From positions 1 through 64,000 of IMG/VR virus record IMGVR_UViG_3300020165_003419: a DNA stretch of 64,000 nt; one strand, written 5' to 3'. Both the position numbers and the translations under genes were made by a program. Below the pieces are notes generated by a model. It saw nothing but the letters and a program-made list of their open reading frames with translations, was not told the DNA's origin and searched no databases. This document shows, in pieces, positions 1 to 58,398 of the stretch. Within the stretch, counting starts at the first letter, position 1, and the number at the start of each line of letters is the position of its first letter. Source of the stretch: a virus.

Positions 1-453
1 GAATAACCAATCAACTTTACCGAGTTTGATACGCAGGGCATCTTCAACAATCGCACCATTTTGACTTAAAACCTCTTTTCCATATTCTACGTTTTTTCCA
101 ATCCCATCTGAATCGGGGATGAGGACAACGTGATCCTCTTCTACATTCTTTGGAATATCTTTACCTGTTGAATTTACGAGTAGCGTCTTATTGAAGCCTA
201 GTTCAATAAACGCATTCGCCATTTTATTGCCTCCACCGCCGACACCAACAAAACCAATATTAATCGAAGAGGGTGCTGTGTTTTCTGGCAAGAGGTCTTC
301 ATCAGAGTATTCCATCTGGAGTCCAAAGTCTTCTACCATACCGAAATCTTCAGCATCTACCTGTTCGTGATAGTGGTCTTTCTCCTGATTGAAGGAGGGT
401 GGTGGTTCTGCGGGAGGCAGAAAATCAAATTCGTTGTTATCGTTGTCGTTCAT
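1..453 (-). CDS. FtsZ/tubulin-superfamily GTPase-like protein, N-terminal part (runs off window)
   Basis: The frame is open from an ATG at 451-453 to the window edge, so 151 N-terminal residues are visible. Residues 1-60 are acidic and probably disordered. Residues 67-82 (GFVGVGGGGNKMANAF) look like the first strand and glycine-rich T1 loop of FtsZ, and 116-128 (DGIGKNVEYGKEV) resemble the FtsZ T3 region that reads GLGAGxNPEVGR in bacteria. The diagnostic GGGTGSG loop would lie just beyond the visible end, after KVDWLF. Members of this superfamily polymerise with GTP; phage relatives (PhuZ, TubZ) position or segregate DNA. The start has an AAGGA-type ribosome site (461-465) and lies 3 bases after the stop of the 457-1431 gene. 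Another Rossmann-like nucleotide-binding protein is possible. The reading frame is certain, the family assignment moderate. Confidence 0.55.
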   Translation of the reverse strand, partial: MNDNDNNEFDFLPPAEPPPSFNQEKDHYHEQVDAEDFGMVEDFGLQMEYSDEDLLPENTAPSSINIGFVGVGGGGNKMANAFIELGFNKTLLVNSTGKDIPKNVEEDHVVLIPDSDGIGKNVEYGKEVLSQNGAIVEDALRIKLGKVDWLF

Positions 454-456
454 TGT

Positions 457-1431
457 TTATTCCTTCGATGCTACAGATTCTCTTGTAAACTGTGGCGGCT
501 TGCTGGATTTCTTCTTGGCGGTCTTAAGGTGACCTCGACGAGAACCAGTCTTGTTAGCCAACGCCAGTGCATCGACGAGAGAGACGATTCGGCGGCCCAA
601 ACGATCGTTTTCAACAGCCAACTTTATATTATCCATATATTTTTCTAGAGATATATCAAGGCCTGCGTCTTCAAGAAACTGGGCTATCGTTGGCTTGTCA
701 AAAACGCTGAGGGCGCCGCCGGCTGCTTTCCATGCAGCTTTTTCTTGAGCGTCAGGTCTTCTTTCGGCGCCGTGCTTCTCTAGATCTGGGTTGGGTATCT
801 TGGTAAATGTGTCTTTAAATTTTCCACGAACCTTTGGTGGGACTAAGTCTCGCATCCGAAAGCCTTCGTCATCTCCAAATTCCTCGGCCAATGTCGCTTC
901 AATTTCTTCTTTGACAATTTCCTCAAGACCAGCATAGCCGCTGCGTTGGTTATAACGATCACCGACTTGTTGGGCAACCGCATTGCGGCGCCTTCTCTCG
1001 GCGTTCGCATTTTTCTTTTTCAGCTTGTCGTATTCCCGGTCGTCACGGCGCCGGCGAATGTTATCTGGATGATCAGGATCGTCCGGGCTTATACCCGTTG
1101 AGCGTCGTTTCGAACCCGTATCGCGTGGACCAACCTCTCTATTGGTTGGTGTAGTGCTCACTATCTTTTTAAGATTAGCTATCAAACTAAGCAAGTCGGG
1201 ATCATTTCCCTCGTCGTGGCTCTCTAATGTTTCGATAGCATCATTGATCGAGTCGATATCCACGCCGCCAGATGATGGCGGTCCGCTAGTCTTCCAACCG
1301 GGCAGACTTGCAGCTATTTGTTTCATGTCTTTTGATTTTTGAGAAAAACCTAACATGTCCATAAAGCCTTCATCAAGTCCGGATAATTCTTCTGCGATAA
1401 TATCTTTAAGTTCTGATCTTTTGATTTTCAT
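457..1431 (-). CDS. putative head-internal (ejected) protein with capsid-targeting-like leader
   Basis: This 324-residue protein has no family I recognise. It begins MKIKRSELKDIIAE-E, an amphipathic 14-residue leader shared with three other proteins in this region and ending in Ile-x-Glu, the type of site cut by T4-like prohead proteases. The middle (about 100-160) is highly charged, with runs of Arg, Asp and Lys, and a second amphipathic acidic helix (LEEIVKEEIEATLAEE) lies near 170-185. The C-terminus is basic and Ser/Lys-rich. Its ATG overlaps the stop of the upstream ParB-motif gene by 4 bases, so the two are translationally coupled. Because the leader group lies away from the virion genes, packaging inside the head is an inference, not shown. 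Confidence 0.6.
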   Translation of the reverse strand: MKIKRSELKDIIAEELSGLDEGFMDMLGFSQKSKDMKQIAASLPGWKTSGPPSSGGVDIDSINDAIETLESHDEGNDPDLLSLIANLKKIVSTTPTNREVGPRDTGSKRRSTGISPDDPDHPDNIRRRRDDREYDKLKKKNANAERRRRNAVAQQVGDRYNQRSGYAGLEEIVKEEIEATLAEEFGDDEGFRMRDLVPPKVRGKFKDTFTKIPNPDLEKHGAERRPDAQEKAAWKAAGGALSVFDKPTIAQFLEDAGLDISLEKYMDNIKLAVENDRLGRRIVSLVDALALANKTGSRRGHLKTAKKKSSKPPQFTRESVASKE

Positions 1432-5556: not shown

Positions 5557-5889
5557 TTATGAATTTTTTACTATTGTGAGGATAGTGCGGAAATTGTGGG
5601 AGACACGAGGTGTCATCGAATTTCCAGTGTCTCGGTGGTATTGAACCAGATCAGTCCACATTCTGTTGTGGTCTGAACGAATAGTCTCGTAGTCGCGGGC
5701 TTTGATAAGGTCAATCATTTCTTGTAGAGCAGGCGGAACTTCATCGGCATATGCGGAGAGCATTCTATCTGCCATGTAATCCAGCTGCATACCGATGGCG
5801 TCTGCAGAATTATCGGTAGGAGGGCTTTCCAGAGTGCTCTCAAGCTCTTCCTTGATAATCTGTTTAAGCTGGGATTTTGTGATTTTCAT
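5557..5889 (-). CDS. small putative head-internal protein with capsid-targeting-like leader
   Basis: This 110-residue protein starts MKITKSQLKQIIKE-E. An in-frame ATG 51 bases upstream would add 17 residues that run back through the preceding gene, so the start at 5889, right after that gene's stop, is preferred. After the leader there is a Ser/Pro/Asp-rich stretch (17-30) and then an acidic helical body ending RTILTIVKNS. I recognise no enzymatic motif. The leader matches that of the next gene upstream almost residue for residue (MKITKKQLRKIIME-E), which suggests a common sorting signal on unrelated bodies. Synthesis is probably coupled to the 5891-6124 gene, whose stop is 1 base away. Confidence 0.65.
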   Translation of the reverse strand: MKITKSQLKQIIKEELESTLESPPTDNSADAIGMQLDYMADRMLSAYADEVPPALQEMIDLIKARDYETIRSDHNRMWTDLVQYHRDTGNSMTPRVSHNFRTILTIVKNS

Positions 5890-5890
5890 T

Positions 5891-6124
5891 TTATCTAAGT
5901 GCGTCGAGCATATCTTGAACTTTGCGAAGAGGTTCTGCAAGGTCTTCTCGCTCTTGGCTCACAAGATACTGGATTACATCCTCAAGGCGTGCTGCTCCGC
6001 GAGCTTCGTCAGATGCATCGCCGTCGGGTCCGGTAACAATCGTCTCACCGTCCATTTCCATGTGACCTTCGGAAGTAATCTCTTCCATAATAATTTTTCT
6101 AAGTTGTTTTTTTGTGATTTTCAC
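5891..6124 (-). CDS. very small protein with capsid-targeting-like leader (GTG start)
   Basis: A 77-residue protein translated from GTG at 6122-6124, supported by an AAGGAG ribosome site 6 bases ahead that overlaps the primase stop codon. The leader MKITKKQLRKIIME-E is followed by an acidic, Gly-rich linker (residues 15-40) and a short helical C-terminus (ARLEDVIQYLVSQEREDLAE). If cleaved after Glu14 the mature peptide would be about 63 residues. It has no recognised family. The gene is 10 bases downstream of the primase and belongs to the same transcript. Confidence 0.65.
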   Translation of the reverse strand: MKITKKQLRKIIMEEITSEGHMEMDGETIVTGPDGDASDEARGAARLEDVIQYLVSQEREDLAEPLRKVQDMLDALR

Positions 6125-21689: not shown

Positions 21690-22744
21690 ATTTCTGGCTC
21701 CGTTACAGGACCGTAAAGGTCTACGTAGATATTTGAGTCTTCATTCGTCTCAGTACAGTCGAAATCTAAATCAACATAATAGCTTTCTCTATTAAAAATT
21801 TCCGCATTTTTGCATGCGATTTCAGGATCAATTTGATGATCTTTGAGCATATCAAAATAATACCCAACACTGGACGTTGTGTAGTTTAAATCAATATTTC
21901 TTATATCATCATCAATTGGATCAAATGCGTTCAATGACTCTTCCGTCATCATTGAGCCCATAATTCTTTGATGATCTTCTTTAAAGTATTTTCTCTTAAA
22001 CGCATCTCTTTTTTCAAGATGAGAACCGCCCAATGAGGCTCCATCATCTTCAATTTCAAAAATTTCAATATCAAAGTTTTCAGTAAGCATGTCTGTGTTT
22101 AGTTCTTCAACATAAACTAACAAATCATCACTAATAAGTTCAATTATTTTATTGTCTCTGAATGTTCTGGTTCGAGAAATTGCTTTCCTAAGACTCTGCT
22201 CTCTCAGCTCAACGCCATAATTTGCGGCTGCTATTGTTTTTTCATAATTCAATTCGATATTTACTTGTGGTATTTTAATATCATTTTTGTGGTCCGACGG
22301 TTCTGTGCTGGTTATTTTTCCGTTCAGTGTTACTACCTTCCATCCGGGAGCAATTTGCTGCTCTCCATCTAGGTGAGCATCTCCGATCATAGACGTATAA
22401 CGATAAGAATCTTTTTTAGGAGTTATCTGTATTGGGCTAACATCAACTTCAAAGTAATTTATATCAGAACCCTCTTGTGTAATTGGTGGATTTGTATTAG
22501 TCAAGACATCTTCGATATTCTCAAATAGCACCAAGCCTTCCATATATTGAGTATCTTTTTTAATTCTTTGCCCTATTTCACTTTGAGCCTCAGTTATTCC
22601 TGCATAATTTCCATCATAGATAATATTATCATCAAAAAAAGCATAGTAACTTGGCTGGAATGTTCCTAAAGACATCAAGTGTCGACCGTACGGTGTCAAT
22701 TGTATATCAAAAACTTGTTCTTTTTTGTTTATAAATTTAGCCAT
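21680..22744 (-). CDS. virion structural protein with 'LTPYGRHLMS' N-terminal module
   Basis: The 354-residue protein opens MAKFINKKEQVFDIQLTPYGRHLMSLG followed by YYAFFDDNIIYD. The first block repeats the layout of the LTDVGRR proteins (D..LT..GR..S.G, then an aromatic-acidic segment), so it is a third, more distant member of that family. The middle has a long acidic and helical region (about 190-260). Its stop overlaps the start of the 1265-residue gene by 10 bases and its ATG overlaps the stop of the giant LamG gene by 1 base. It may dock to the same ring as the other two copies. Confidence 0.65.
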   Translation of the reverse strand: MAKFINKKEQVFDIQLTPYGRHLMSLGTFQPSYYAFFDDNIIYDGNYAGITEAQSEIGQRIKKDTQYMEGLVLFENIEDVLTNTNPPITQEGSDINYFEVDVSPIQITPKKDSYRYTSMIGDAHLDGEQQIAPGWKVVTLNGKITSTEPSDHKNDIKIPQVNIELNYEKTIAAANYGVELREQSLRKAISRTRTFRDNKIIELISDDLLVYVEELNTDMLTENFDIEIFEIEDDGASLGGSHLEKRDAFKRKYFKEDHQRIMGSMMTEESLNAFDPIDDDIRNIDLNYTTSSVGYYFDMLKDHQIDPEIACKNAEIFNRESYYVDLDFDCTETNEDSNIYVDLYGPVTEPEICP

Positions 22745-25700
22745 CAGTAATTTCCTATATTATTACCACTGGGCGCCCCGGCGGTGGCCGCTGGTGCCGC
22801 GGCTTGTGTTGGTGCCGAAGACATCTGTGTTCGAGTGGCGGATACATTTGTATTTAGGACTTGCCCACTTGGAATTGTTGCAAGACTTTGCGTCGGAGAT
22901 GCCGTATATGTAGCAGCACTAGCAGCAGTTATATTGCCTTCAGAACTAATTGAACCGCCGTAATTTACCGAGGTATTTTTACCCGAGTTTTCGGGTCTGT
23001 TATTAAAGAGTACCTCTGTGTCCATATTAATTGACTCGATTATGGAACAGAAATCATACGGCCAATTAAACTGCATTGGGCTATCATCATCCCTGCTGAT
23101 TGTCTCCGAAGAGCCGGCTTGACGATTAACATAGTCATAGTAATCTGCCTGGGAACGTTGTTTTACTTTGAAAACCATCCATCTCATGTTCGTATTATTT
23201 AAAATGTCGCCGGCTTCTAAGGGATAGCCAGCAGATAACCTGTGTTCTGCGACTGCAGTTTTAAAGAATCCTTTCTCGTGGTTTCTCGGCATTAAATTTT
23301 GCCACATATACGATAAGTCATCTTTATCAAAGGTATAGCTAAATTCAAAGAAATACATCACAACCGGGGCGGCATTATCAGGATAGTTAATAAAGTCGAA
23401 CTGCGGAGGCAAAATATATTTGTTCATTGTTTGCGTTTGTTTGTTGATAACTGCTGCAGCGTCTGGTGAGGTTGACTCGCCGGCGGCAGGTAGCCTAAAC
23501 AAGTATTTTCCATTAAAGTTGCTGAATGTTTGCGAATCTTTTAAATTTTCGCTCGTAGATTCAACCACATAGGGAATCGCGACGATAGCTTCGTTTATAG
23601 TATGAGAGTCTTTCAGTTCTCCAATTCTAGAGTTTGTTTTGGTTTTCTTAAACCCGCACAGATCGCGAAGAGAGCCGACTTGCCCTTCTTTCGCTAATGC
23701 ACCGGCGTAATCAGGAATACCATCGTTATAAATACTACCAGACAACCTTACTTGGTAATGGTTTCTAAGCCAGTTTTTAGGCATGTCATCGATTTCAACA
23801 AACACCCCTGTTTTCTTATCACGCGGAATTTCGCCGAATTGATGCCACATTCCGTTAGGAGCAGAAGCGCTTCCAAATGTTGGCAACGTCTTAGTAGATG
23901 TTCGATAATTTAATAAAACATTACCTTTCGTTCGATCAATAGAAGAACTAACCGGCATCTGCTGATACTTGTCGCTAAAGTTGAGCATTGGGGTTTCAAA
24001 TTTTGTACTAATGATCCATCGCTTACCAACAACTTCATTGGTTTGTTCGGCTGCAACATCACTTTTTAGACCATTTGCGTTGTTTGCCGAATTTGCCGAA
24101 GTGCCGGTAGTTTCTTTAAACACCCTTTCAACACCAAATAAGTTGAGGCTCGCACTAAGTTGCATTGAATTGCCATTAATGCTGGATCCAGCGTACGGGG
24201 CTGTACTCACTACTTCTCCCTGACCTTTATATTTTGGATCATGGATAAGACTTGTGTATTCTTGATTTGCTATATATCCATATTTAGGACGGTAACTTGT
24301 GTTGCTCCCGATTGAACCAGAGGCGCCGACTTGAGATGAAATATGATTAGCAGAATAGGTAATACCATAGCCTTTTAATTTCGGTCCAGGATCCACTCTC
24401 CAATAGTTAACCGTTGTCTCAGCCAAGATTCTTTCAAGATCGTAAGCGACGTCGCCTTTAGGTCGGAATATTAAATCTGCCCACGATTCACCGTGATAGT
24501 ATGGCGGAGTGAAGGACCAGTTATATCCTTTAACAGAGTCCATAATCTGATATGTGTCTCCAGAACCAGATCTGTGTGCACTGCTAGTGTATGCTGAGAT
24601 TGGGGTAAGACCCTGTGACGTAGTCGGAAAATAGCTGTGACTAGATGTTACGTTTCCAGCATGACCAGCGACCGGCGGACCAAACGCGGTAGGTCGACTA
24701 TACATTGTAAATGTTTCATTAAAGTTCGGCGCAAACATTGGATCCTGCGGCAACTCGAAATAAGAGCCTTGGTCATACATAATTGCAGCAGTGTCAGTGG
24801 GACCGGTAGATAGTCTAGGTAACAGCGCTGTTCCACCGCCTTGAGTGTATGACTCAGGCATGAAGGAACCACTTTCGAAACTATAATCTCTTGAGCCGGT
24901 CACCGAACGACGCATTTTTACTCTAGCCATGAAAACAGAACCGGTTTCAAATCGGTAGTCGTCTTTGTACACAGTTTCTGATTTTAACGAGGTAAACTCC
25001 GAGTTCTTTAAGTAAAAATCAGCCACCCCTCCAAAGAAGTTTTTAGCCATCAAGGTATAAGTTGGATCCGAACTTGCTTCATAGGATGCCACTGCGTTTA
25101 TAGTAGCCGAAGGGTGAGCTTCACAGTCAGCAAACTGTGTATTGGCCATCATATTGGGTTCGATAATTGCTTCAAATGGGACTCTTTGATCCCAAAACGA
25201 TCCATACCCACGATCAAGTCTGTTTGCCGGCACTACGCCTTTTTCTAAACTTCCAGATGAACTGGCAGTCATAAATTCTTCAGTTCTTGTATTGATCATA
25301 TAATCTGACATAATCGGCACGTGCGGACCACAGTTTGTGGTTGTGGCTGCATAGTCGCCTGTTGATGCAGTGTATGATGTATTTATATAATGGCTCCCAA
25401 CCAGCATTTTATATCTGTTGTATAAAATAGGATAGTCTACAGCTATTCCGGACTTAATTGTGTTATATAAGATACCGGGAGCAAAGTATGTTTGCATTAC
25501 TGGTCTAAATCCGCCGGGTACTACATTAAATACATTTTTTCCAGCATAAGCGTTGGAGCCGGCAGCTGCAGCAATTTTAACTTTAGTTCTTGCGTGGTTT
25601 TCGTAAGAGTTTTTAAATTCGGACACCAAATCCATTGTTCTTTGAGAGGGGAAGAATCCCTTGTATGGATGGAATTTTATAGATGCGGAGCACACTAATC

Positions 25701-28700
25701 TTATTTCTGCCGGATTAAGTCCAGAATTGCTTCCTACTTCTGCAAAATATTTCAGGAAATCTGAGTTCGAGTAATCGATGTAGAAGCCTTGCTGCGAACT
25801 ATTAATTGAAGATCCTGGGATATCAAAATAATCTTGTTTGCCTTCAGAAAATGGACTGCCGTAACTCAAGTAGTCCGGTAAGTTCCTACTGATCCTGTAC
25901 TCTGGTACTATTGATCTGCCTCTAGATTGCAACCTAATTGATTCAACAAACTTAGCATATGAGTCGTACGCCGGCGCTGTGGGGGTAAACTTGCCGCGGT
26001 ACCGAGTCCGTCCCTGATCCTTATAGTTGGGTAGAACATCTGAAATTATCACCGCATTCTTATTGGCTTCCCACAGAGCCTCTCCTGCAAATATCTCGGA
26101 GGCGGAGGAGATAAGCCATGGCGTGGCTGCTGGACCTGCAGCCCGACTAAATCCCAATCTAGCAGTTTGCGAGTTTGGCGCAACGCCATTACGTCCGGCT
26201 AATGTATTGGTTATTGAGTTTGGATTAATGACCGATAACGGTGAACTAAGTAGATGCTTTCTTGCGTACAAAGGTGATGCTACAGCATTATAAGCTCGAT
26301 ATACATCTCTTGCAAAAAAAGTACCCTGACCGGTGGGGGCGCCAGGATATTTATTAGATTCGATAAAGAATGATTGCCAGTCATTTTGAAGTTCGCCGGC
26401 GGAACCGGTCCCGAGCCAATCGTAATTACGTTGAGGCGCTTCACCCCATCGAGCTATGATTTGTGCAGTATTTTTATTTTCAGCCGAGGGTCCTCTTCTG
26501 GTTAAGAAGTGTGTTGGTGCGTCCAAAGCCCAGGCACTCGCAGAAACTTTATATCCAAGTGCACTTGTCCGGACGTAAGCACCAGTGACTTGAGTGAAGT
26601 AAGTGCCAGTATAAAGGTCAGCACCCAATATGTTTCTTTGTTCTCGGTTGCTGTGCCAGTAATCATTTGAATAGTTGAGTCGCTGTGTAGAATGGCTAAC
26701 AAACTCATTTCTTGATGCGGGGTAAGAAGCTTCAGAATATTTAATATAGTTAATATTCGTGATTGAAGGTGCTTGATACGATGCTATAACAACAGCTTGC
26801 AACGGCGTTACTCTTTCGTTAGCAGTGACACTTATTAATCTATTGTCTAACTCTGTTGTAGCAAAATATTGAGGCTGGTGAGTAGTTTTTAACTTGTGTC
26901 GTTGACCGGTAACATCTTGAATACCTATTTCTTGTATTTTCTGTCGGAAAGATACTGGTTGCATGTTATAGGTTCTTGGCGCCTGATCAATCATGATCTG
27001 CAGTTTGTTTTCTTTTCTCTGCTCTCTGATAATCGGATGTTGTGCTTGTCGCGTTTGTTTCCAGGAGGGGAAACCGTACTGGTTGCCACGCTTAAACATA
27101 AGATTGTTGAAAGCATTAGGAGAACGTGAAAGTGGGACAACTTTTACGAGTGCATCAGCATTGTTGATATAATCAATGATATGAGTTGTCCCTTGTCCCA
27201 AAGTGTTAGTAGAGGAGGTAAGCGGCTCATAAATATTTAAGTTTAAATCGCTAACTTGTTGCAAGTAGCCGGCGCCGTTGGAAGCTCGATACCCAAATCT
27301 GCGCGCTGCCATGGTTGGGTCATAACTGCCGATCTCACTGGCACTGACAAAGTTGTATGCATCGATATACCCAGCTGAGCTTGAAATCTTAAAGTCTGTG
27401 GGGACAAAACCAACATGTCCGTTAGTGGAGACTAAGGATGCGGTAATCCAGGCATATTGTCTTGAAGAACGTGGAATTTGATGTTTAACAAAGAAGTTAT
27501 CATACAATGAACTAGATTTGAACGTGCGCTGGGTTTCGTATCTAGATATTGGAGGAGTACAGCCAGCCAATGGTGCTGGAATTTCATTCCTGTATGCATT
27601 TGACATAGTTAATGTGTTGAAATTTGTATTAACAGCCGACATCGGAAACAAGTTCCTAGAGTTTTCTGGCTTCCAGTCCCAAACTACATTCGATCCACTA
27701 ACAAATACGCCAGTGTTTGAAGTGTTGAGTTTATCATCCCTCTCTGCACCACCCATTTTATACCAAGCGTACAGTGTAGCGCTTGAACTAACGTATGGAG
27801 CCGAGGAAGTAACATCACAGGGAGTTCCGCCATTATATAAAGCAGCAACGTCTGTAGCCCTTAAAGAGCCAACCCACAGAGTAACTTGATCCATCGAGCC
27901 AGTAAATATACTGCTACCGCCTCCGGTACCGGTGCCGTCTGATTGCCCACCTATAACCAGTGCTGTTTGTCCGTCTCTTTTTACCTTTGAGCGAACTTGA
28001 TATGTACCGACAACCCTTTTTGCGTCGAATCGGTTATTTGGAGATGTGCCTGTTATAACATTCAATGCGGCGCCGTCGATGTACATAGCGACATCCGTGC
28101 CAATGTATCCGGCGCCATTGGTGCTTGATGTTGGACAAACGACTGCAAGATGATGCCAGTTTCCATCGTCGAGAACACTAGACGTTATATAATACTGTGC
28201 GAGTGCCGCGGTGCCGCCATGAGGATCCGTTGCTCTTGTTCGTGCAAAAAGTTCCAATCGATGAGCATTAGAAACATAATTTTTCTTTATTTCAAAAAAC
28301 GGATCGCCGCCGGCGCCTGATTTTCCGAGATTGTATAGGTGCCCTTGATTAAAGGCGGGACTAAATCTAATCCACGCTGCGTAGCTGAACCCGCTGGCTC
28401 TTGAAGACGTTAAAAAAGTGCTTGCCGAGGCTGAGTCTGCATTAATTAATTGCATGCCGCGGCTGGCGTCTGTGCCCCAGTAAAGAGATTTGTCATTAAT
28501 CAGGCGTGGTCCGGTTCGAACCCCGACTACAGTTTCGGTAAGCACCTTATCTCTTTGTAAATTATTGCGGTGTACTTTGTGCATTCCGGGTAATTCTGCG
28601 TATGATGCCCCGGGATTTAATGCAAGATTCGAGTCGCGACCGAACCGAGCTGTATGGCGTGCGAGGTGTGAACGGAGTCCAAAGTCTAGATTGTGTATAT

Positions 28701-31700
28701 CGTTGACTCTGATTCCGTATGTTTCAGAGATAGTTCCGCTCGGACCTTGAGATGGCTTGAGAACTGAAAGATTCTTATAGTTCAAAGCGTTATAAACCGA
28801 GAACTCATCTGCTCTAAAGTCGGTGTATCCGGGTGTCATTACCTCAATGCCACCAGGGGCCGAGAATTTTGTTTTAATGACAGATTTGTTAGCTGTGCCG
28901 GTTAAGTATCCAACGTTGTATTCATTAACAAAGTTGAAATGTTCTCGGTCAACTGTATCATAATCTCTTGTTGGTTTTGTGTCTAAGAACGTACGTACTG
29001 ATGTTGAGCTTGTTGCAGCGCCTTGAAATACGTTAGTCGGAAGCACTGGTAGATTTTCAATAAACTGCCTTGGGTTGGAGTGGGCTCCAAACGTGCTAAC
29101 AATTTCGTATGTGTTTGTATAGTTACCGAGTTTTGTCGAACCCGTAATCCTAATATTCTTAAAGTTAAAAGGTCTTTTTGCAACCATATCGCGATAGTGT
29201 GTTGCTCTCGGATAATCAGCGTGAGGGTATGGCTGGTTTGCGCCTGGAGGCGCGACATAATCTGGTGACATCGGATAGTCTGCACCGACCATACCGATGG
29301 CTCCGGAAACACTGGCTGCACAGGCACCCAGCAAAATTCTCCACGCTTCAGGGCGATTGTTATTATTATCTGTACCTGTATTTAAGGGAGTATGCCTGTG
29401 TTGATTTCCTCCGACATTGTGTTCCGTAAAAATTCCTTGTAATGGCTTTTCTTGATCCTCGCCATATACATCGTTGTGTAAGTTCGTGATTTCTATATTA
29501 AGCCCAAGACCAGCTTGGACATCAGACTGATATCCACTGTTTAAAGAGGAGCTAATTATATTAAACGGAAACGCTTTACTCGATTTAACATGGTAATAAC
29601 CGTCTTTGTCGTCATGGTGTCGACCGTAATCAACAGGAACTACTCTTTTAATTTTCTTAGCAGGAGTCTTGCTGGGATCTTTAAAATCAGTGATCGCTAG
29701 GAAATCGTCGTTAAAAGACAGCAGTATGTTTTGAGGAACAAAGACTCCGCCTTTTTGATTAACTGGTCCGCCGGGATATAACGCTGCTTTTGAGAATTCA
29801 ATATTTTTATCTATAGAAAAGTTTGTACCACCTTTATAAGTTCTTGCGTTAGGTATATCAGATGAAAAAATATTCGTTTGTTGGAAATTCTTGTTTGCAA
29901 ATTTCTTTGGTGTGTATTTGGTAGAAGCGTTGCTGACAATTATGTTATCTCTGCTGGAAGACAATACTGGTCTTGAGTTGATAACCTCTCTGAATTTCTC
30001 TCTCTGGTTATCGATATTTGCATCGCCCGAACTAATTTCGACTGAACTACGTTCAGCGCGCATTTTCCAATAATCAACTTGTTTAGTGGTCTTACGTGGA
30101 GAAGTTGGTAGCGTTGTAAACCCAGTTTCATATGGATAATTCTTTTCGCCAACACCATACATGGCTGCTTCTGGATCGGGCTGCTTCGCTTCCAAAGTAG
30201 GGAATGGTGTTCTGTATTTGTTTCTTTCTAAGACATGACTCTCAACCAAGTTAGTGATGCCATCTACAAAATTAGCGGAAGCGGGCACTAATTGAGAAAA
30301 TATTTCAGTTATTGCAGTATCAAACCACTTGTAATAATTGATGAATTTTTCAATATCCTTTGTGTCTTTTACGCGACGGAAAAAAGCTTCACGCAATTTT
30401 TCTAAATCTTTGTAACGACCGCGATATCTATTAACAGGGGCGCCTATTGTGTTGTTAAAGTCTACGATTCCAGAGAAAAAGATCAACATTTCTTCAGAGA
30501 TTGCGCGGTACATACTTTTCTCTGCTGTAATGACATAATTTGGAATTGTCTGTTCGAAGCCTAAAAGCTCGTCATCATCATTCAAAATACTGATCATTTC
30601 AGAAGAAACAACTTCTTCGGGATCTACAAACTTAAAAGAATTAACTCTTTCTCTGTCTATCACATTAGTCGATGAAGCATCAAAGAAATTTCCATAGCCA
30701 CTGTATTGATACCCTGTTAGTTTACCAAGCCAACCATAATTTTCTCTAATAACTGAGGAGCCTGAACTAAAGTCTTGAGTTACAAAATTGCCTGCTGCGT
30801 TTGAGCTTGTGAGAGCATCGAAATTCCATTCTAATACCAAGGTATCTTTGTTTAAGTTGTCAACCATGTTGGTTGAAGTATCGAGGGCAGAAATATTTTT
30901 ATAAGAACCAGAAACACCAGAGTTGTTTACATCGTATAAATGAAGCTCTAAATCTGAATTTTCAAGATGTTTGGCCCAATATTTAACATTTGAAATTTTA
31001 ACATCTGAATTGGAAACTAAAGTACCTGTAAGGTTGTTTCTATAAGCACCTGCATAAAGTCTTTTATGGTTTGTTAAGAAGTTAGAACCAGTTGTTGCAG
31101 ATATCGAACTACTAACTTGGAATGAATCTTTAATCGTGCCCAATACAGAGTGGACACCTCGGAATATCAAATCATAGCCCAGACTTGAACCACTAACAAA
31201 GCCGGTCAATCCCACAGACTTGGGCTTTAAGCGGACAGAAAGGTTCCATCTATTGTTATCATAGACACCCTTGAAAAGACTACTCGTTAAAGTCGGAAAA
31301 GGGTTGGCTGAGCCTGACGACTCTAGTTTGAAACGTACGTTTTTTGAATTTGAAGCGTCTCGAACAGCATAGACTTGAAAGTTTGCTAAACGACTTATCG
31401 AACCAGTGCGTGGTGTGGAAGTGTTCGTTCCTTTTTGGTGAGCCGGGTTAACCGGGTGTGCTAACTGTACAGCGCCGAATAACGATACTTGGGTGAAGGA
31501 ACGGTCGACTCGATCTTTCGTATTAAAAAACTTAGGAAAGATAACATCGGCTTCTGCTGTAAACCCGTAGTTTTTTTCGTAGGCACCGCCGGTGTAGCCT
31601 TGAATCGATGAACCTGATATGAATCCTCTCGAATCTTGATTAGTTGAGGCACTTCTCTGGTAAACAACTGCACTGGTTTGGGACGCTTTATTGAAGTTTG

Positions 31701-34464
31701 CGGATTTATTAATCGAAACTATTTGTTTTAAGTTATTTTTAACCTCGTAGATGTTGTTATCAGAATAGATTTTTAACTGCACAAGATCGTCATCAATATT
31801 GAAACACCTAAGAACGTTTTTAAATGCGTTTTCGGTACCCTTGGCTTTATAGATGTTAGCAAGGTTGTTATATAAATTTTGATAAATTAAGTTTTTAGTA
31901 TCAAATAAATTATTCTCAAATATTCTTGTGTCGTTTCTGTTTAACAACTGTTCTTGTACTGACGCATCTACAAAAATATCAGGTACGTACATACCCAAAG
32001 ATTGCGGAAGATGATTGGCGAAGGGTATAGCTGATCCTGATTCGCCTACATAATTTACTTGTTTAAACTTTGGAAACTCTTTTGTCAACAAGTGGACATT
32101 ATCAAAATATGAGCCCACAATATGAGAAATAACGTCAAGATTGTTGTTTTCCGTATCTTCGTGAGCTTCAAGAACCCAACTTGGTGCGTGATTTACGAAT
32201 GCTGAATGGTTAGTCGAGTCGTAAAATTTACCAACATCTAATAAATCTTGTCGGACGGATATATAGTTCGGGTGATTTGATCTTATGATCGGTTCTTCAT
32301 ATTCTGATATAGCTGCCGAGGCTGACAAAATCGCAGAACCTGTGTTTCTAGACTGAGCAGCATATCCTGTCCATGCTCCGTTGGATATTCGTCCGGAATA
32401 ATCTGATACTATACTGTCAGTCGCGGTGACACCAGTGATTCCTTCATTAAATTTAAAATAGACACCCAATGTAGTGTTTGAGATATCTGTATTAGAGCCG
32501 CCGCCAACTCTGTCGAAGTGATTTTCTGCTACTTGTGCAGCGTTTCGTTCTGCTTTCCAAAACCTAAACTCGTCAATAGAGCCGGAAAGCTTGCCGGCGC
32601 CGGGAGCGCCAGAAGTTCCGACCGGGGCGGTCTGCAAAGCTCCAATTCGTCCGATGGCAGATTTATTGTTTAGATCAGCTATCAGGGCTGTCGTTTTAGC
32701 CGGCATAGCAGTAGCACTGTAAATTGTTTTTATATCTGCTGCCGACACCGGTGTGTTCCATACAGCAACATCTGCGATATTTCCTTTGAAGGGTCCGGTG
32801 CCAGACGTGCTGTCTCCGATTAAACAATCATCTGAATCGCCGGCGCCGATGATCCCATAATAAGCACCCGTTCTCGAACTGGGAGAAGAAGCCCATGCAA
32901 CTACTGCCCCATTCACGTATACTACTGGATTATTGGACGTTGAGTTAGCATCGTAAGTGACGGCTACGTGTGTCCAGGTACTTAAGGGTATGACACTATT
33001 TGCTGTTGACCAAGTATAGCTGGTTCCGGCGCCCCATTTAACATTAAAGTTTAATTTTTCATCTGCATCAGTCCAGAATCCTATGTCTGTGTCAGCAAAG
33101 TCTATAATTCTGTCTCTAGTTGTTGTGCCCGATGTACCATCTGTCTTGTAAATCCAAGCAGCAAATGACATTTGTTGTGTCGAACCTTCTGCGTTCCCAA
33201 TCAATGAATCCCATAAACTGTCAGTGCCAATTTCAATATGATCATTAGAACCATCGAAAGTTGCACTACCAGAAGGTGAAATATAAAGATGTGGTCTCAA
33301 GCTTGTGCTAACTGTTGGAAGGTCTGCTCCGTCGCAGATACCATTTCGATTTTTACCGCTGCTATCAGGCCACTGGAGTCCCACGACATCGTTGAGGCGC
33401 CACCAACCTTGCAAACTTTCTTCCGAGCTATATGAGGAAGTAACGGTAGATGAGTTGTATGAGCGGAACGCGGCGGACAAATCATATGCTCGCCTGGATT
33501 CATCGTCTAATTTTCCATTAACGTATAATTTTGTCTTAAAAAGAGAGCCACTGTTGACCATGGAGATAGCGTAGTGTTTCCAATCTGACATTTCGTAATG
33601 CAGTTTACTACTTCCAAGACTAATAAAGTTTCTTGTTGTTGTAGTGCCAGACATCACAGTGACAACAAAAGGCTTTTGTGCGGCGCCGTTTCTACTAGTT
33701 GAGCTGGTTAATTCTACTAGAATGCGACCGTAGCTATTACTAGATGCCGCTTCTTGGTTCCACCAATCAAAAAGAACTTGTTTCTCTGTCAGTGATGTGC
33801 TGATTGAGCCAGTGTTTAACCAAAATTCAACTGTTACTCCAGTATCAAAGTCTGCGTGTAAGTTAGACTGCCTGGTACCTTTGCCATAGTCTGTGGGTAA
33901 CCCAGCAGTCTCATAGATACTCTCATCATAGATGTTGCTACGATCTATCTTAGAGGAGTGTTCGTCTGGGGATTGATCTTTTAAGGAGGTGCCTTGTGAG
34001 CCAGTATGGGGACCACCCTTGAAAGTTATGTATTCCAATTTACTTGGTAAGCCATATCCGTCAGCCGTTGAAGTCTGTGTTCCCCAACCCACTTCTCCAA
34101 CTGAATTTGGATTTGCTGATATTACAGCGTAACCAGTAGATCTGGGGTATTTCTTATTAAAGATATACTTTTCTACTGGCAGCAGCTTATTGTAGAATGC
34201 GTTTTGTTCTGCTAATGAACCATCATAAGGATAAAAATCTGAGACATGGTCGAACCCAGACTTGTAATAAAGATAGGCTGATCCGTAGAATACAAATTTT
34301 TCTGGATTTGAGTAGTCAATATCTGGAACAAAAGTTCGTTGTTCTTCTATTATATTAATTGCATTATCTGACGACTCAACTGACGCATATGCACCTTTCT
34401 CGGTTTCATAATCGCTATATTGTGTTGTCTTGTTTGATGCGTCAAAAAGTTTTTTAATGCTCAT
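22744..34464 (-). CDS. giant LamG-domain virion protein (3906 residues)
   Basis: At 11.7 kb this is the longest gene in the window. Three stretches look like LamG/concanavalin A-type jelly rolls: about 190-345 (VTVEFWLNTGS near 208), about 350-590 (SFAAWIYKTDG near 431 and WTHVAVTYDA) and about 2000-2250 (SYAAWIRFSP near 2025 and WHHLAVVCP). These domains often bind sugars. The remainder is rich in Ser, Tyr, Asn and Thr, and the last 40 residues are Ala/Pro/Thr-rich and probably flexible. There is no signal peptide. Its position after gp6/J and the 519-residue gene corresponds to T4 gp7, but T4 gp7 has 1032 residues, so this would be a greatly enlarged wedge or a fibre. Start is ATG with an AGAGAG site. 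Confidence 0.75.
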   Translation of the reverse strand: MSIKKLFDASNKTTQYSDYETEKGAYASVESSDNAINIIEEQRTFVPDIDYSNPEKFVFYGSAYLYYKSGFDHVSDFYPYDGSLAEQNAFYNKLLPVEKYIFNKKYPRSTGYAVISANPNSVGEVGWGTQTSTADGYGLPSKLEYITFKGGPHTGSQGTSLKDQSPDEHSSKIDRSNIYDESIYETAGLPTDYGKGTRQSNLHADFDTGVTVEFWLNTGSISTSLTEKQVLFDWWNQEAASSNSYGRILVELTSSTSRNGAAQKPFVVTVMSGTTTTRNFISLGSSKLHYEMSDWKHYAISMVNSGSLFKTKLYVNGKLDDESRRAYDLSAAFRSYNSSTVTSSYSSEESLQGWWRLNDVVGLQWPDSSGKNRNGICDGADLPTVSTSLRPHLYISPSGSATFDGSNDHIEIGTDSLWDSLIGNAEGSTQQMSFAAWIYKTDGTSGTTTRDRIIDFADTDIGFWTDADEKLNFNVKWGAGTSYTWSTANSVIPLSTWTHVAVTYDANSTSNNPVVYVNGAVVAWASSPSSRTGAYYGIIGAGDSDDCLIGDSTSGTGPFKGNIADVAVWNTPVSAADIKTIYSATAMPAKTTALIADLNNKSAIGRIGALQTAPVGTSGAPGAGKLSGSIDEFRFWKAERNAAQVAENHFDRVGGGSNTDISNTTLGVYFKFNEGITGVTATDSIVSDYSGRISNGAWTGYAAQSRNTGSAILSASAAISEYEEPIIRSNHPNYISVRQDLLDVGKFYDSTNHSAFVNHAPSWVLEAHEDTENNNLDVISHIVGSYFDNVHLLTKEFPKFKQVNYVGESGSAIPFANHLPQSLGMYVPDIFVDASVQEQLLNRNDTRIFENNLFDTKNLIYQNLYNNLANIYKAKGTENAFKNVLRCFNIDDDLVQLKIYSDNNIYEVKNNLKQIVSINKSANFNKASQTSAVVYQRSASTNQDSRGFISGSSIQGYTGGAYEKNYGFTAEADVIFPKFFNTKDRVDRSFTQVSLFGAVQLAHPVNPAHQKGTNTSTPRTGSISRLANFQVYAVRDASNSKNVRFKLESSGSANPFPTLTSSLFKGVYDNNRWNLSVRLKPKSVGLTGFVSGSSLGYDLIFRGVHSVLGTIKDSFQVSSSISATTGSNFLTNHKRLYAGAYRNNLTGTLVSNSDVKISNVKYWAKHLENSDLELHLYDVNNSGVSGSYKNISALDTSTNMVDNLNKDTLVLEWNFDALTSSNAAGNFVTQDFSSGSSVIRENYGWLGKLTGYQYSGYGNFFDASSTNVIDRERVNSFKFVDPEEVVSSEMISILNDDDELLGFEQTIPNYVITAEKSMYRAISEEMLIFFSGIVDFNNTIGAPVNRYRGRYKDLEKLREAFFRRVKDTKDIEKFINYYKWFDTAITEIFSQLVPASANFVDGITNLVESHVLERNKYRTPFPTLEAKQPDPEAAMYGVGEKNYPYETGFTTLPTSPRKTTKQVDYWKMRAERSSVEISSGDANIDNQREKFREVINSRPVLSSSRDNIIVSNASTKYTPKKFANKNFQQTNIFSSDIPNARTYKGGTNFSIDKNIEFSKAALYPGGPVNQKGGVFVPQNILLSFNDDFLAITDFKDPSKTPAKKIKRVVPVDYGRHHDDKDGYYHVKSSKAFPFNIISSSLNSGYQSDVQAGLGLNIEITNLHNDVYGEDQEKPLQGIFTEHNVGGNQHRHTPLNTGTDNNNNRPEAWRILLGACAASVSGAIGMVGADYPMSPDYVAPPGANQPYPHADYPRATHYRDMVAKRPFNFKNIRITGSTKLGNYTNTYEIVSTFGAHSNPRQFIENLPVLPTNVFQGAATSSTSVRTFLDTKPTRDYDTVDREHFNFVNEYNVGYLTGTANKSVIKTKFSAPGGIEVMTPGYTDFRADEFSVYNALNYKNLSVLKPSQGPSGTISETYGIRVNDIHNLDFGLRSHLARHTARFGRDSNLALNPGASYAELPGMHKVHRNNLQRDKVLTETVVGVRTGPRLINDKSLYWGTDASRGMQLINADSASASTFLTSSRASGFSYAAWIRFSPAFNQGHLYNLGKSGAGGDPFFEIKKNYVSNAHRLELFARTRATDPHGGTAALAQYYITSSVLDDGNWHHLAVVCPTSSTNGAGYIGTDVAMYIDGAALNVITGTSPNNRFDAKRVVGTYQVRSKVKRDGQTALVIGGQSDGTGTGGGSSIFTGSMDQVTLWVGSLRATDVAALYNGGTPCDVTSSAPYVSSSATLYAWYKMGGAERDDKLNTSNTGVFVSGSNVVWDWKPENSRNLFPMSAVNTNFNTLTMSNAYRNEIPAPLAGCTPPISRYETQRTFKSSSLYDNFFVKHQIPRSSRQYAWITASLVSTNGHVGFVPTDFKISSSAGYIDAYNFVSASEIGSYDPTMAARRFGYRASNGAGYLQQVSDLNLNIYEPLTSSTNTLGQGTTHIIDYINNADALVKVVPLSRSPNAFNNLMFKRGNQYGFPSWKQTRQAQHPIIREQRKENKLQIMIDQAPRTYNMQPVSFRQKIQEIGIQDVTGQRHKLKTTHQPQYFATTELDNRLISVTANERVTPLQAVVIASYQAPSITNINYIKYSEASYPASRNEFVSHSTQRLNYSNDYWHSNREQRNILGADLYTGTYFTQVTGAYVRTSALGYKVSASAWALDAPTHFLTRRGPSAENKNTAQIIARWGEAPQRNYDWLGTGSAGELQNDWQSFFIESNKYPGAPTGQGTFFARDVYRAYNAVASPLYARKHLLSSPLSVINPNSITNTLAGRNGVAPNSQTARLGFSRAAGPAATPWLISSASEIFAGEALWEANKNAVIISDVLPNYKDQGRTRYRGKFTPTAPAYDSYAKFVESIRLQSRGRSIVPEYRISRNLPDYLSYGSPFSEGKQDYFDIPGSSINSSQQGFYIDYSNSDFLKYFAEVGSNSGLNPAEIRLVCSASIKFHPYKGFFPSQRTMDLVSEFKNSYENHARTKVKIAAAAGSNAYAGKNVFNVVPGGFRPVMQTYFAPGILYNTIKSGIAVDYPILYNRYKMLVGSHYINTSYTASTGDYAATTTNCGPHVPIMSDYMINTRTEEFMTASSSGSLEKGVVPANRLDRGYGSFWDQRVPFEAIIEPNMMANTQFADCEAHPSATINAVASYEASSDPTYTLMAKNFFGGVADFYLKNSEFTSLKSETVYKDDYRFETGSVFMARVKMRRSVTGSRDYSFESGSFMPESYTQGGGTALLPRLSTGPTDTAAIMYDQGSYFELPQDPMFAPNFNETFTMYSRPTAFGPPVAGHAGNVTSSHSYFPTTSQGLTPISAYTSSAHRSGSGDTYQIMDSVKGYNWSFTPPYYHGESWADLIFRPKGDVAYDLERILAETTVNYWRVDPGPKLKGYGITYSANHISSQVGASGSIGSNTSYRPKYGYIANQEYTSLIHDPKYKGQGEVVSTAPYAGSSINGNSMQLSASLNLFGVERVFKETTGTSANSANNANGLKSDVAAEQTNEVVGKRWIISTKFETPMLNFSDKYQQMPVSSSIDRTKGNVLLNYRTSTKTLPTFGSASAPNGMWHQFGEIPRDKKTGVFVEIDDMPKNWLRNHYQVRLSGSIYNDGIPDYAGALAKEGQVGSLRDLCGFKKTKTNSRIGELKDSHTINEAIVAIPYVVESTSENLKDSQTFSNFNGKYLFRLPAAGESTSPDAAAVINKQTQTMNKYILPPQFDFINYPDNAAPVVMYFFEFSYTFDKDDLSYMWQNLMPRNHEKGFFKTAVAEHRLSAGYPLEAGDILNNTNMRWMVFKVKQRSQADYYDYVNRQAGSSETISRDDDSPMQFNWPYDFCSIIESINMDTEVLFNNRPENSGKNTSVNYGGSISSEGNITAASAATYTASPTQSLATIPSGQVLNTNVSATRTQMSSAPTQAAAPAATAGAPSGNNIGNY

Positions 34465-38232: not shown

Positions 38233-41200
38233 TTAATTTTCTGGTTTTTTACACAAATCTCCATTAGCATTAAATGGATTATCGCGTAATTTGCTTCTTC
38301 TAAACCAGGGTAATATTCGGGCGCCCTTCGTGGGCTGTAGTGAAGCTTTTAGATTTTTAACGACCAGTGCAGCGTAATCTGTTGACTCGCCGTCGTCAGG
38401 CTCAAAATTAAACTTCCTGTTATAATAGTGGCTCTTAAATAGTTTTTTAATTCTACTTTTTGAGCTTTTAAGTAATGTTTGATCCCAATCATCCCAATCT
38501 AAATTAAATGGTGTAAAAACCTGCCTGTCGCTATACGATGCCCAAAGTGCATTGGATTCCGAATAATCGGCATCCCAATTCTCGGGTGCTCTTGGGAATG
38601 TAACTTTTATTCCGGGCTTAGATTCGAAAGTAGGTTTGGTCGAGTCGAGCATTCCGAGGAGAGTCGGGAAAGATTCGGCGTCTGCAACGGTCTGTTCTCC
38701 AATAGATGGCAGAAAACCCAGATCGTTATAAATTGCCAAAATCGATGGCACTTTTTTGGCAGAATACACTCCATTTAATACATATTGCATTTCTGGAACT
38801 TCTCTAAGCTGGTTAATCATGCAAAGTAATAGTTTGCTATTAGCTTCAATCGGAGCCGCGGCACCAACTGATAGATCTAGCATATCCATTTCTGTTGTTA
38901 CTAAAGTATATTTTTTGCCTGAAACTACTGCAGAGAACATCAATCCATATCTAGCTCCTAACTGCCCCGTGGTTCCTATGGGCGGCAGCGTTGTGTTCTG
39001 TTCGCCGTCTTGCCCAATTGGGTATACTAATTGCATATCTCCCGGATAAACTTCTGAAATATTAAGCGATAACTCATTACTTTTAATCCTTAATATAGCA
39101 TCGCTCGGGTTCATTTTTATTCCGTTAAGAGAGATATACTTCTCGATTACAAACGGGTGTGATTCTACAGTTGTGTAGCTCACCCCTGACGCATATTCAT
39201 TTATATCCCCAATAGGTACGACTAACTTGTTTGCGAAAGGAGTTAAGATATCATGTTGATCTTCAACGTGAAACTCTCCAGCCATATATATCACATTTCC
39301 ATCTTGATCTGTATGATTGTGGTAATAACCAACATATTCGCCACCTTCTGGCATTGAAAGCTCTCCGCCGGCTGTATAATGTTCCTCGCCTTCGGTGGGA
39401 AGACCAATTGGCTCTTCAACTATTTTCTTATCTAGATCCAACGTTTCGCCACCTTGGGTCATGTTTGACAAGATATAATAAAATATGTCATTAATTTTTG
39501 GTTCTACGCCGGCGTGTGCCATGTTTGTTAGGAATTTGTCACTAAGGAATTTCAATTCTTCTAATACAAATTCTTTTAAAACAATTTTCGCGTCTTCTTC
39601 AGTTGCTTGAACTGCTTCGAAATTCTTTTCGTCCCTGTATGTCCTCAGACCTCTTGTTTTAAGCGGCCAACGGTATGGTGCTTGTGTTTCATCTAAAACA
39701 TTTGCAATTTTGACGTCGTTTCTTTTATCAGTGATTCTTGGATATTTATAATTTTCTTGAGCGTCATTAATTCTAAATAAAGCTTGTAAGACTGCTTCCG
39801 GTGGATCTACAATTGTACCAGCGTCGACCAATCTGCCATAAGTTTGTACTGCCTGCTCTAGAAAAGCATACCAAAATTCGTCATCTTTAAAGGTGTTGAA
39901 GAATTCCCAGCCGGCGCCTTGAGCATCTCTAAAAGACCTCTCCATATTCTCAACTATATATTGTGGATATATTGTACTAAACACATTCTCAAAATCTGGT
40001 TTGAATATTGAAAATGTTGCGTATGTCTTCAAGTAATGCACACTAGCATAAATTCTACACGCGGATTTTATCAACCCTTGGATTCCTGCTTTGCCAGCGC
40101 GGGTTAATATTCTGTTGTATGGTACCTCTGTTACACAATCTGGATCTGATTGCAGTCTTTGATCTTCTGGAATTTCATTATACGTATCTGATATTTCTTT
40201 TGAGATAGAGCCAAAATCTACCAAGTCTGTATTGTGCGGCTTACACGGAGTAAACTCGGGGAACATTATGTTGACCATTCCCAGATATCCTTCGTGTTGT
40301 AAAGGTTTTATGTAGACTCCGGGGTTTGTATAAGACCCACCATAAGTGGTCGGATCAAGGTAGTAAACGCGGGCGTCATCTCCTCTTTCTAGTTGGTCCC
40401 TACTAACACCCATAATCATATCAGAATTTCTTATGGATCTTATCTCATTATCGTCGTCAAGAATGATCGCCTCTTCATATGGGGTGCCTGCTGCCGAGAG
40501 AGTTTGATCTTTTGCTACAACATATTCAGCATCTTCCTCAACCAGCGTGTCGTATTTTGCTCCATACATAAAAGCAAAATCATTCATTGCTATTTCTGTT
40601 TTAAACCTTTCAAATAGCTGGGTAACTACTTTACTGATATGTTCGTTTATAACTTGCTTAGACGGGATCACATCTAACACAGCGTTGTTGTTGATGAGAT
40701 CGTAAAGAAGAGCGACTGAAGGATTGTTTTCTGATTTTGATGAATAACATTCTGCAAATGTCGGATATTGTAGGGGATCTATTTCTCCAAAAGTATTGTC
40801 AATTGCGACAAACTCATAAAGCCTCTCATACATGAGAGGATCTCCATCAGAACTTGCTTTGTCTGATTTGTAATCTTTCCACTCGTCCGGACTCATCATA
40901 GCTCTTAGATCTGCACGATACATTGCTTTTAAATTAAATATGTTATTAATATTTATTCTTGTTGTGTCAAGTGGTTCAAACGCAGTTCCTAGGTTCGATA
41001 TTACTCCACCGGTTTCCATTAAATCTCCAAAATATGCGTCTATATCAAAACCGTATGCGAAACTCGTTCCCTCAAGGCTGCGGCGACCCTTGTTATTATC
41101 TCTAAATTTAAGTTTTATATCTTCGTCTGCTTTACGACCATTGCGAACAATTCTCATAGTCTCAGTGCCCAAGTTTGTTCTAAGTGACACGTTAAAGCCC

Positions 41201-44200
41201 ATATCGGGAATTGATATTCTGTCTATATCCACTCCTCCGAATAAGCCAGTAAAACCCAAATCGCTAAAACTCTTAGTAATTGAGGTTGAGGGTTTCCATG
41301 TATTATTCAATTCAACTGTCGTATCAACTGACAGGATCTCTTGTTGCAAATATGCTGCAACTTTTTCTGGAAAATTACCTTTTTGTAGCTCGGTTGAAGC
41401 GGGGTCAGAGAAAAAGAACAGAAATTGCGAGGAGTCAGGCGCCTCTCCGTCGGTGACAAAATCGACATATCTTGGGTTTGTGGCGCTTTTTCTCCAGTGA
41501 GCCGTTAATGGTTGACCCATTGTATCAGACAACACCATGTTGAGCAGTCCCCATTCGCCAAATCCAAATGCACCACCATTGCCTATTATGTCTTCTGCAT
41601 AATCTTTCTTAAGAGATTTTAAGCTACCAGCAAGACTTGTTGATGCTGCAGCTTGTTGTTGTGGTGATTCAAATGGAACCAAACCATCGTCACAACCGGG
41701 TTGCGATACCATCGGCGGCATGCCAATTGCCTCCGGATCAACAAACCCTTGCTGCATTACAGTAGCGAGACTTTCTAAATCATCTTGTAAGTCATCCTGC
41801 AAGTTGTTAAACATGGTGTCACACTGTTCCGGAGTTGCTCTACCCTCAAGCAAAGCGCAGCGCATTTCTTTAAATTTATCTAACTGATCAGGGGTTGCAC
41901 ATAACGTTGGGTTTGCCGGTAAATCATCATCTTCTGGCAAATCTGCCATAAAGTCTCTCATTCCTTGTTTCACATCTTCTGGCATCAATGTTCCGCAATT
42001 GGCCATAAAGTCGCCAATCGATGCTTGAGTTGGAAATGCTTCTGAAAACTGCGGGTATTCATATTGAACCAAATTATAAGCTGCCGCTCCCATCTCTGCA
42101 GACATATCACCCAGAAAAGCATTCATCATCTCGCTGCGAGTAACTGCAGAAGACAAGTCGCCAGCAAACGATACTACAGCATCCTTATCCGCTAGCGCGG
42201 CACCACCGACGCCAAGTTTTTCGAACATATCGGCGATTGTGTCGTCTATTTGACTGTCACTAGCAGAGTCTTCTCCACAAATTGCATCTTTGACAACGTC
42301 TCTAAATGTCGTGCTACCGTCTAATAATCCAGCTATGGAACCGACGAGCGATCCCAATGCTTCAAGCGCTTTACATATCGCAGAACCCAGTAGCTCACAA
42401 ATTTTGATCATTATCTTAACGATAATCATAATAAGTATTTTTTGTAACACAATCTTTAAAAGTTGGAATATGATCCAAGGGAGGTCAGATAGCTTAGGGA
42501 TCCATCCAAATGGATTAAAAAGCTTTGGCATCTTCATATCACGAAGAGAGCGACACCATGGTAAATCAATATCTTTAATAAAGTCTAAAAGGTTTGGCTG
42601 CAAAATCGGCGGTCTTGGGCAATCGAGCATCATGATCATCTTAGCAACCATTTGTGCGCCTGGATATTTATTGAGCATATCAGTTACTGACAATAAATCG
42701 TCAGCATATACTTCAATGAGAGCCTTAATATATGCTTCTATTATAACGTTATCGCTTAATTCATTTTCAGCATTACTTTGCACATCGAATTGTTGCGCCA
42801 ATGTTCTTCTTGTTAGTTCTGAAGATCCTGTTGCTGAATCGTATCCAGGTGCTTTGGAAAAAGCGGGGCGTTTACTCTTGTTTAATGTCGTTGGATCACC
42901 TTCCGGGGACCCTGAAGTGTTTGCCGGGGTTCTCTTCCAAGGTGGAGTATACTTTAATTTTCCAGATGTTACATCTGAGGCTACTGCCATTCCGCCCTCA
43001 AGGGCGGCACCAGATGCATTTTTCAGGATGTCTTGTTCCGCGAGCTTTTTGTTTACTAATTTCTCCATTTCTGCTTGTCTTTCGGGAGGTAGACCAATAA
43101 AGAAGTCTCCAAGATTTTCTATAGACATACCTCGGAGAGCCGCAGCAATAATACTAGATAAAGAGGCTTCAAGACTAAGTCCAGAAAGAAGACATCCTAT
43201 CGCTTCCATTACCAAATCGAACAAGCCGCAGATTTTTAGTCTGTCTAATCCATCAGCAAACAAATTATCTAAAATAGTATCGGCGCCGGGGATGGATATC
43301 CCACTAAATCCTGATAGAAAGTTTGCGCAAATCATCACGAAGATTTGTTCGTCGTCGTTCATCTGTTGGAACGCTTGTTCTGTAGCCATCTCCATTAGCT
43401 TTTTTGGTCGACCGAGCATTCCAGTTTCCGGATCAAAGTCGTTTGGGTCTATTACGACCCCCATTTTTATATTCTTCTTCTGGAACGAGTCAAAGGTCTT
43501 CGAACAGACGTCTTTGTTGAATTGGTAAGCCAATGCATCACCAATGCTGAAAAACTCATCTAATATTTCTTGTCCTAGGTTGAGCCCTTCGGTAGCTATC
43601 TTGTCTTGTATACAACTTGCTATAGTATCTGTTGTCTGCTCTTCGGGCCACTTTAGTGTACTATATACTTTAGGATAAGTAAACTCAGTAACCACATCAA
43701 GCCATTGGGGAGCTTCTCTTGCTTGCAGTTTTTGATCTATCCTGTTCATATTCGCAAAATACGCAACTGCAGTACGGTCCTTCCACGCTTGAGTAGAGAT
43801 AAGAGGCTTTAACCTTTTCTTCTTGTAAACATAAGGCTTTCCACCACAACCAAGAGTCCAGACTCTTAGTCTTTTTAGTTCGTATTTCGCAGAAAACTTA
43901 AACTCTATCTTGGTAATTCTATCCATCCCAAAAGCTATTTTGCCCACACCAAATATATTAAGACCTTTATCGTTTAAAAATCCATCTAAAGATGTAAGCA
44001 GTTGTGCAAGAGTGCTGGTTGGGAACAAACCTGCATCGCCATAACGACTGAATTGTTTAATAGAATACAATTTGTTTGATTCTTCAAACACAATTTTACC
44101 GCGTTCTATGGCAGTATACACTCTATAAAATCTTGAGTAAAGATTAAATGCCTTTCGAACCCTAATTAAGCGAGATTGCATAAGGTCGGCTTCCATCTCA

Positions 44201-49620: not shown

Positions 49621-49622
49621 GT

Positions 49623-53460: not shown

Positions 53461-53469
53461 GTTCCTGCT

Positions 53470-57073: not shown

Positions 57074-57081
57074 TTTTTAAT

Positions 57082-58394: not shown

Positions 58395-58398
58395 ACTC

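Follow-up and report, generated by a model that had tools for sequence, protein, structure and literature searches.

A widespread tubulin/FtsZ-superfamily protein of large T4-like marine phages, with an acidic N-terminal arm and no C-terminal tail

Large uncultured marine viruses of bacteria, on contigs of up to 293 kb, carry a tubulin that, judged from its sequence, forms a distinct and widespread phage family, apparently new, although it may have been described earlier (Sun et al. 2025, likely a PhuZ survey). Its first member came from the window analyzed here, a stretch of 64,000 nucleotides (positions 1 to 64,000 of IMG/VR record IMGVR_UViG_3300020165_003419), in which the gene is truncated. 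The minus-strand open reading frame begins with an ATG at 453 and is still open at position 1 (151 aa); there both the window and the viral contig (G000, 98,299 bp) end, so that the record itself contains no further part of the gene. Taken alone, the fragment has a single Pfam match, Tubulin, at E 0.06, and no match in PHROGs, so the caution of the preliminary description, which had called it a tubulin/FtsZ-like fragment, was justified. The signal is more than chance, because synonymous change between the fragment and its relatives (50–63% per site) far exceeds nonsynonymous change (~3%), and because complete relatives match both Tubulin and FtsZ: the reference protein L003 reaches Pfam Tubulin at E 1.2e-7 (32.7 bits, just missing the curated cut-off of 33) and FtsZ in the PDB at E 3e-9, and with the family profile A4 the FtsZ match reaches 3e-11. 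The T1 loop and the T3 region, the latter placed by alignment with FtsZ, CetZ, and gp138 of Bacillus phage G, occupy the residues that had been claimed for them (Table 1). As the same description had supposed, the tubulin signature lies outside the window, in the rest of the protein, where relatives have the GGGTGSG-type sequence AGGGGGTGSS and the T7-type loop SFDSKD.

Table 1. Features in and around the truncated tubulin gene at the left end of the window
Feature	Position	Strand	Remarks
5' part (residues 1-151) of phage tubulin/FtsZ-family gene	1..453	(-)	Cut by contig end
T3 region DGIGKNVEYGKEV, residues 116-128	70..108	(-)	Equivalent of FtsZ GLGAGANPEVG
T1 glycine loop GFVGVGGGGNKMANAF, residues 67-82	208..255	(-)	Alignment to FtsZ GVGGGG
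Acidic disordered N-terminal arm, residues 1-62	268..453	(-)	Net charge -17, low pLDDT, purifying selection
Upstream neighbor, 324 aa, N-terminus MKIKRSELKDIIAEEL	457..1431	(-)	No confident PHROG match
AAGGA, likely ribosome-binding site	461..465	(-)	8-12 bases before start codon, read from sequence; putative function
SbcD-like phosphoesterase fused to SbcC-like ATPase, 1044 aa	2361..5495	(-)	PHROG 77 and 1649 matches

A complete protein of 378 aa is encoded by L002, a relative whose gene starts at the same place and whose DNA is 88% identical to that of the fragment. Scanning IMG/VR with the fragment gave 121 relatives, and most of the 80 that were kept hold the complete gene. Divergent members were found with a DNA pattern for AGGGGGTG, and profile searches of IMG/VR gave at least 345 matching stretches that carry relatives, and also a second branch on contigs of up to 293, 284, and 281 kb. 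Phage tubulins such as PhuZ and TubZ had been called uncommon; they do exist, but with this family present on several hundred marine viral contigs the word does not fit here. In the complete proteins, 376–400 aa long (mostly about 376–384 aa), VDWLFVLAGGGGGTGSS aligns with the T4 loop of FtsZ and SPIQSFDSKDLETCL with its T7 loop. Across an alignment of 66 diverse members, 49–92% identical to the reference, five residues of T1 (pattern GxGGGG[GN]K) are invariant in all 66, namely G70, G72, G73, G75, and K77. So are the GGGTGS core of the T4 signature AGGGGGTGS, the T6-region residues N222 and E223, and, in the T7-like loop Q-[ST]-F-D-[ST]-K-D, D267 and D270, catalytic-type aspartates that align to NxDFxD of FtsZ. 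After T7, the C-terminal (activation) domain aligns with CetZ down to the last strand, and sequence matches to CetZ cover nearly the whole length (E 4e-9 over most of it). Pfam Tubulin is matched by 65 of the 66 members, and no other family consistently. The reference matches NCBIfam ftsZ at E 2.7e-11, with a score of 43.4 bits against the TIGR00065 cut-off for FtsZ of 295.2.

An AlphaFold2 model built from the 66-sequence alignment has a pLDDT of 87 and a pTM of 0.82; an earlier one from 21 near-identical sequences was poor (pLDDT 55). The better model shows two domains joined by H7, and values below a pLDDT of 50 are confined to residues 1–7, 15–33, and 38–48. Its top PDB matches in Foldseek are CetZ, TubZ, and FtsZ. 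VIA-align, over residues about 61–378, gives Z scores of 26–32 to these proteins, with 32.0 for CetZ2, 31.9 for TubZ, and 28.6 for FtsZ, so that CetZ and TubZ rank equally. When predicted viral structures are searched, two uncultured-phage proteins annotated as FtsZ or cell division proteins come first (16–18% identity), and PhuZ-like proteins rank after them. An unrelated Rossmann GTPase or dehydrogenase, which would have refuted the preliminary description, was rejected: matches to NAD(P)-dependent reductases were weak, and the fold search was unambiguous. Given the T4 signature, the T7 aspartates, the C-terminal domain, and a model that matches CetZ, TubZ, and FtsZ, the family belongs to the tubulin/FtsZ superfamily and is, by family, a predicted GTPase.

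The two ends of the protein set it apart. The N-terminus was expected to be acidic and disordered, and it carries a net charge of -17 over residues 1–62, with low pLDDT in the model. A core motif of this arm (around DF..F, followed by an LPEN-like sequence) is recognizable across divergent branches. When the window fragment is compared with three relatives, dN/dS is 0.02–0.06 in the arm and 0.02–0.03 in the core, so that selection constrains the disordered arm about as tightly as the enzyme; the arm probably binds something. At the other end, the proteins stop a few residues past the last strand, with no C-terminal linker or tail peptide of the FtsZ type, and almost no sequence is left there for a helix H11 and acidic knuckle of the PhuZ type, which are absent. 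FtsZ has a C-terminal linker and tail, PhuZ and TubZ have a C-terminal helix, and PhuZ also has an acidic knuckle (PMC3678025); H11 and the knuckle stabilize the PhuZ filament (PMC3678025).

As a member of this superfamily, the protein would form GTP-dependent protofilaments, with GTP bound in the T1–T6 pocket of one subunit and the active site completed by the T7 loop (D267, D270) of the next, and hydrolysis at the subunit interface would make the filament dynamic. A hydrolyzing polymer is suggested because the pocket and T7, the two halves of one intersubunit active site, are jointly invariant, and polymerization, on the precedent of the family, is highly probable. The acidic arm may take over from the C-terminal tail found in FtsZ, TubZ, and PhuZ as a docking or bundling peptide, and the filament would most likely organize the infected cell late in infection, placing phage genomes and/or carrying proheads and packaging complexes about. 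PhuZ centers the phage nucleus and carries capsids (PMC13282480), and the analogy makes positioning of genomes or proheads the likely kind of role, to which we would nonetheless give a little less than an even chance. A filament that positions the DNA or a replication compartment, as the preliminary description had suggested, is plausible. The proposal as a whole, a dynamic GTP-dependent filament with a docking arm that acts late to position genomes or proheads in T4-like phages, is one that we favor with moderate confidence; what the filament does in the cell and what the arm is for are held less firmly than GTPase activity and polymerization. More tentatively, the family might represent a phage cytoskeleton without a phage nucleus, an independent branch widespread in the sea, in which the arm docks the proheads or genomes of T4-like Flavobacteriales phages.

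The carriers are T4-like tailed phages by their gene content. The relative G001 (195,690 bp) is probably near complete, since the genes at its two ends seem to be pieces of a single gene that the window has intact. It encodes a T4-like terminase and, as recognized by eye in the translations, a portal, a gp23-like capsid protein, and a sheath. Among cultured phages, its terminase is closest to those of Flavobacterium phage immuto (47%) and Microcystis phage Mel-JY01 (44%), from both of which the tubulin gene is absent. Other genes were also seen in these genomes. For example, G001 has a GroEL-like chaperonin gene at 114548–116125 (L162), read by eye from its translation. On the minus strand of the window, ORFs of 3906 and 2154 aa (22744–34464 and 38233–44697) near a baseplate wedge gene probably encode tail or baseplate proteins, and a nucleotide-sugar/surface-glycan block (48757–63998) includes UDP-glucose dehydrogenase, epimerases, aminotransferases, and phosphoheptose isomerase. 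In the part of G000 outside the window, a phage tmRNA with the tag ANNNNHFESVRLAA is predicted by ARAGORN on the minus strand (L167:17299-17635), and genes for tRNA-Thr and tRNA-Asn lie on the same stretch.

The hosts are likely to be marine Flavobacteriales, because a scan of ~85,000 genomes matched only four contigs, all of them short and placed in three Flavobacteriales assemblies by binning; a first scan of genome contigs, with patterns taken from the N-terminal arm, gave no match. The most fully tested of these contigs is viral, given a terminase 90% and a portal 82% identical to those of G001. These assemblies, the probable hosts, encode an ordinary FtsZ of the same superfamily, and division block is a known phage strategy, so one may ask whether the phage protein co-assembles with or caps host FtsZ, blocking division while the cell keeps growing and yields more phage. 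We consider such interference unlikely: the phage proteins are merely ~20% identical to FtsZ of Flavobacteriales and E. coli, they have no FtsZ-type C-terminal peptide, and they keep both halves of the catalytic interface, one of which a cap or poison could lose. A captured host ftsZ is ruled out by the ~20% identity and the missing C-terminal tail. In nine carriers, a search for the phage-nucleus protein chimallin with phiKZ gp54 at E 0.1 found nothing; the query finds itself, and a single-sequence search of this kind may miss remote relatives.

The gene neighborhood is consistent, weakly, with a late or assembly role for the filament. In several lineages the tubulin gene is flanked by capsid and neck genes or sits next to the prohead protease gene, and at some loci it adjoins the major capsid protein gene; in others it is near a PhoH-like gene, and in the G001 lineage it is found between the SbcD/SbcC-like fusion and terminase. 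A core head or tail morphogenesis gene is present in the examined flank at 38 of 93 loci, and at 21 of the 57 with full flanks. None was recognized within about 8 kb at the other 36 of these 57, so an association with virion assembly does not hold throughout the family. The positions among capsid, neck, and protease genes would also suit a GTPase that does not polymerize, or a component of the virion or of head assembly that uses the tubulin fold as a switch. The wide variation in gene location between lineages argues against this, as does the invariant T7 loop, which is most easily explained by head-to-tail stacking of subunits, and we regard it as rather improbable beside a filament.

The position of TubZ structures among the best matches (Z 31.9) raises another explanation, namely TubZ-type partition of the kind known from phage c-st, in which the protein would segregate a plasmid-like phage genome. 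Nothing resembling a tubR/tubC operon was seen: in the 93 loci the tubulin gene has no conserved neighbor that could be TubR, and neither an iteron array nor centromere repeats were found near it in four genomes. In addition, the model ends at the last strand without the C-terminal helix and tail of TubZ, and the T4-like gene content suggests a lytic phage. Partition is thus very unlikely, and a filament acting late in infection is the reading that we retain.

Several further features of the neighborhood were observed. The SbcD/SbcC-like fusion lies upstream of the tubulin gene in both the window and G001; the window copy is 58% identical to the G001 gene, which is two positions upstream of the tubulin gene there. 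SbcD and SbcC are normally two genes. An MKITKxQLKQIIKEE-like N-terminus is common to small proteins encoded at 457–1431 and 5557–5940 in the window and at 179061–179974 and 182216–182698 in G001, where the three strict matches among 237 ORFs are all at most four genes from the tubulin gene; it is possibly a targeting peptide or the result of local duplication. A look-alike of the PrkA serine kinase and SpoVR pair, recognized by eye, lies about 4–7 kb upstream of the tubulin gene at L357, L378, L387, and other loci, and several of the relatives with such a pair (clusters 16 and 21) are among the largest.

Most phage tubulins known so far are either PhuZ, from phiKZ-like phages that form a nucleus, or TubZ, from plasmid-like ones. 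A third and large family, in marine T4-like phages in which no nucleus is detectable, would untie the organization of infected cells by phage-made filaments from the phage nucleus, and suggests that many ordinary-looking large phages build intracellular filaments of their own. It also raises the question of what the filament moves, and could provide a simple test system: a single gene without an obvious partner, whose product has an N-terminal arm where a C-terminal tail is usual.

Sequence identity to the superfamily members compared is low, at ~20% for FtsZ of Flavobacteriales, 19% for E. coli FtsZ, 17% for phiKZ PhuZ, 25% for CetZ, and 22.5% for gp138 of phage G. In a small tree that included one partial CetZ and lacked TubZ, the phage family stood apart from all others with a support of 93, and deeper branches had supports of 42–74. 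The cultured-phage records searched hold no close relative, the nearest being gp138 (22%); tblastn against INPHARED returned only this protein with one query, and nothing with a divergent member. Annotated as FtsZ-like, gp138 is the best cultured-phage sequence match (E 5e-18 with profile A2) and shares the motifs [IL]DNE[KR] and FD-x-x-D with the marine family, but at ~22% identity over 302 positions it is without the N-terminal arm and continues into a long extension at the C-terminus. CetZs, which are encoded on archaeal chromosomes, match both domains in full (PDB 3zid and 4b45, Z 30–32) at ~25% identity, whereas the aligned structures have no counterpart of the acidic arm. With FtsZ, the marine family shares the GTPase motifs, the T7 aspartates, and the fold; it differs in its T7 loop (Q-[ST]-F-D, against N-x-D-F in FtsZ) and in missing both the C-terminal linker and the tail. 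PhuZ of phiKZ-like phages is likewise a phage-encoded tubulin of a large myovirus with conserved T7 aspartates, yet it is 17% identical and has the C-terminal H11 and acidic knuckle that the marine proteins lack, and the match to the PhuZ PHROG (phrog_4733) is weak (E 0.074 for the reference, 4e-4 for the best member). TubZ of plasmids and phage c-st shares the fold (Z 28–32) at 16–20% structural identity, but has a C-terminal tail where the marine family has none. The marine family is neither PhuZ nor TubZ.
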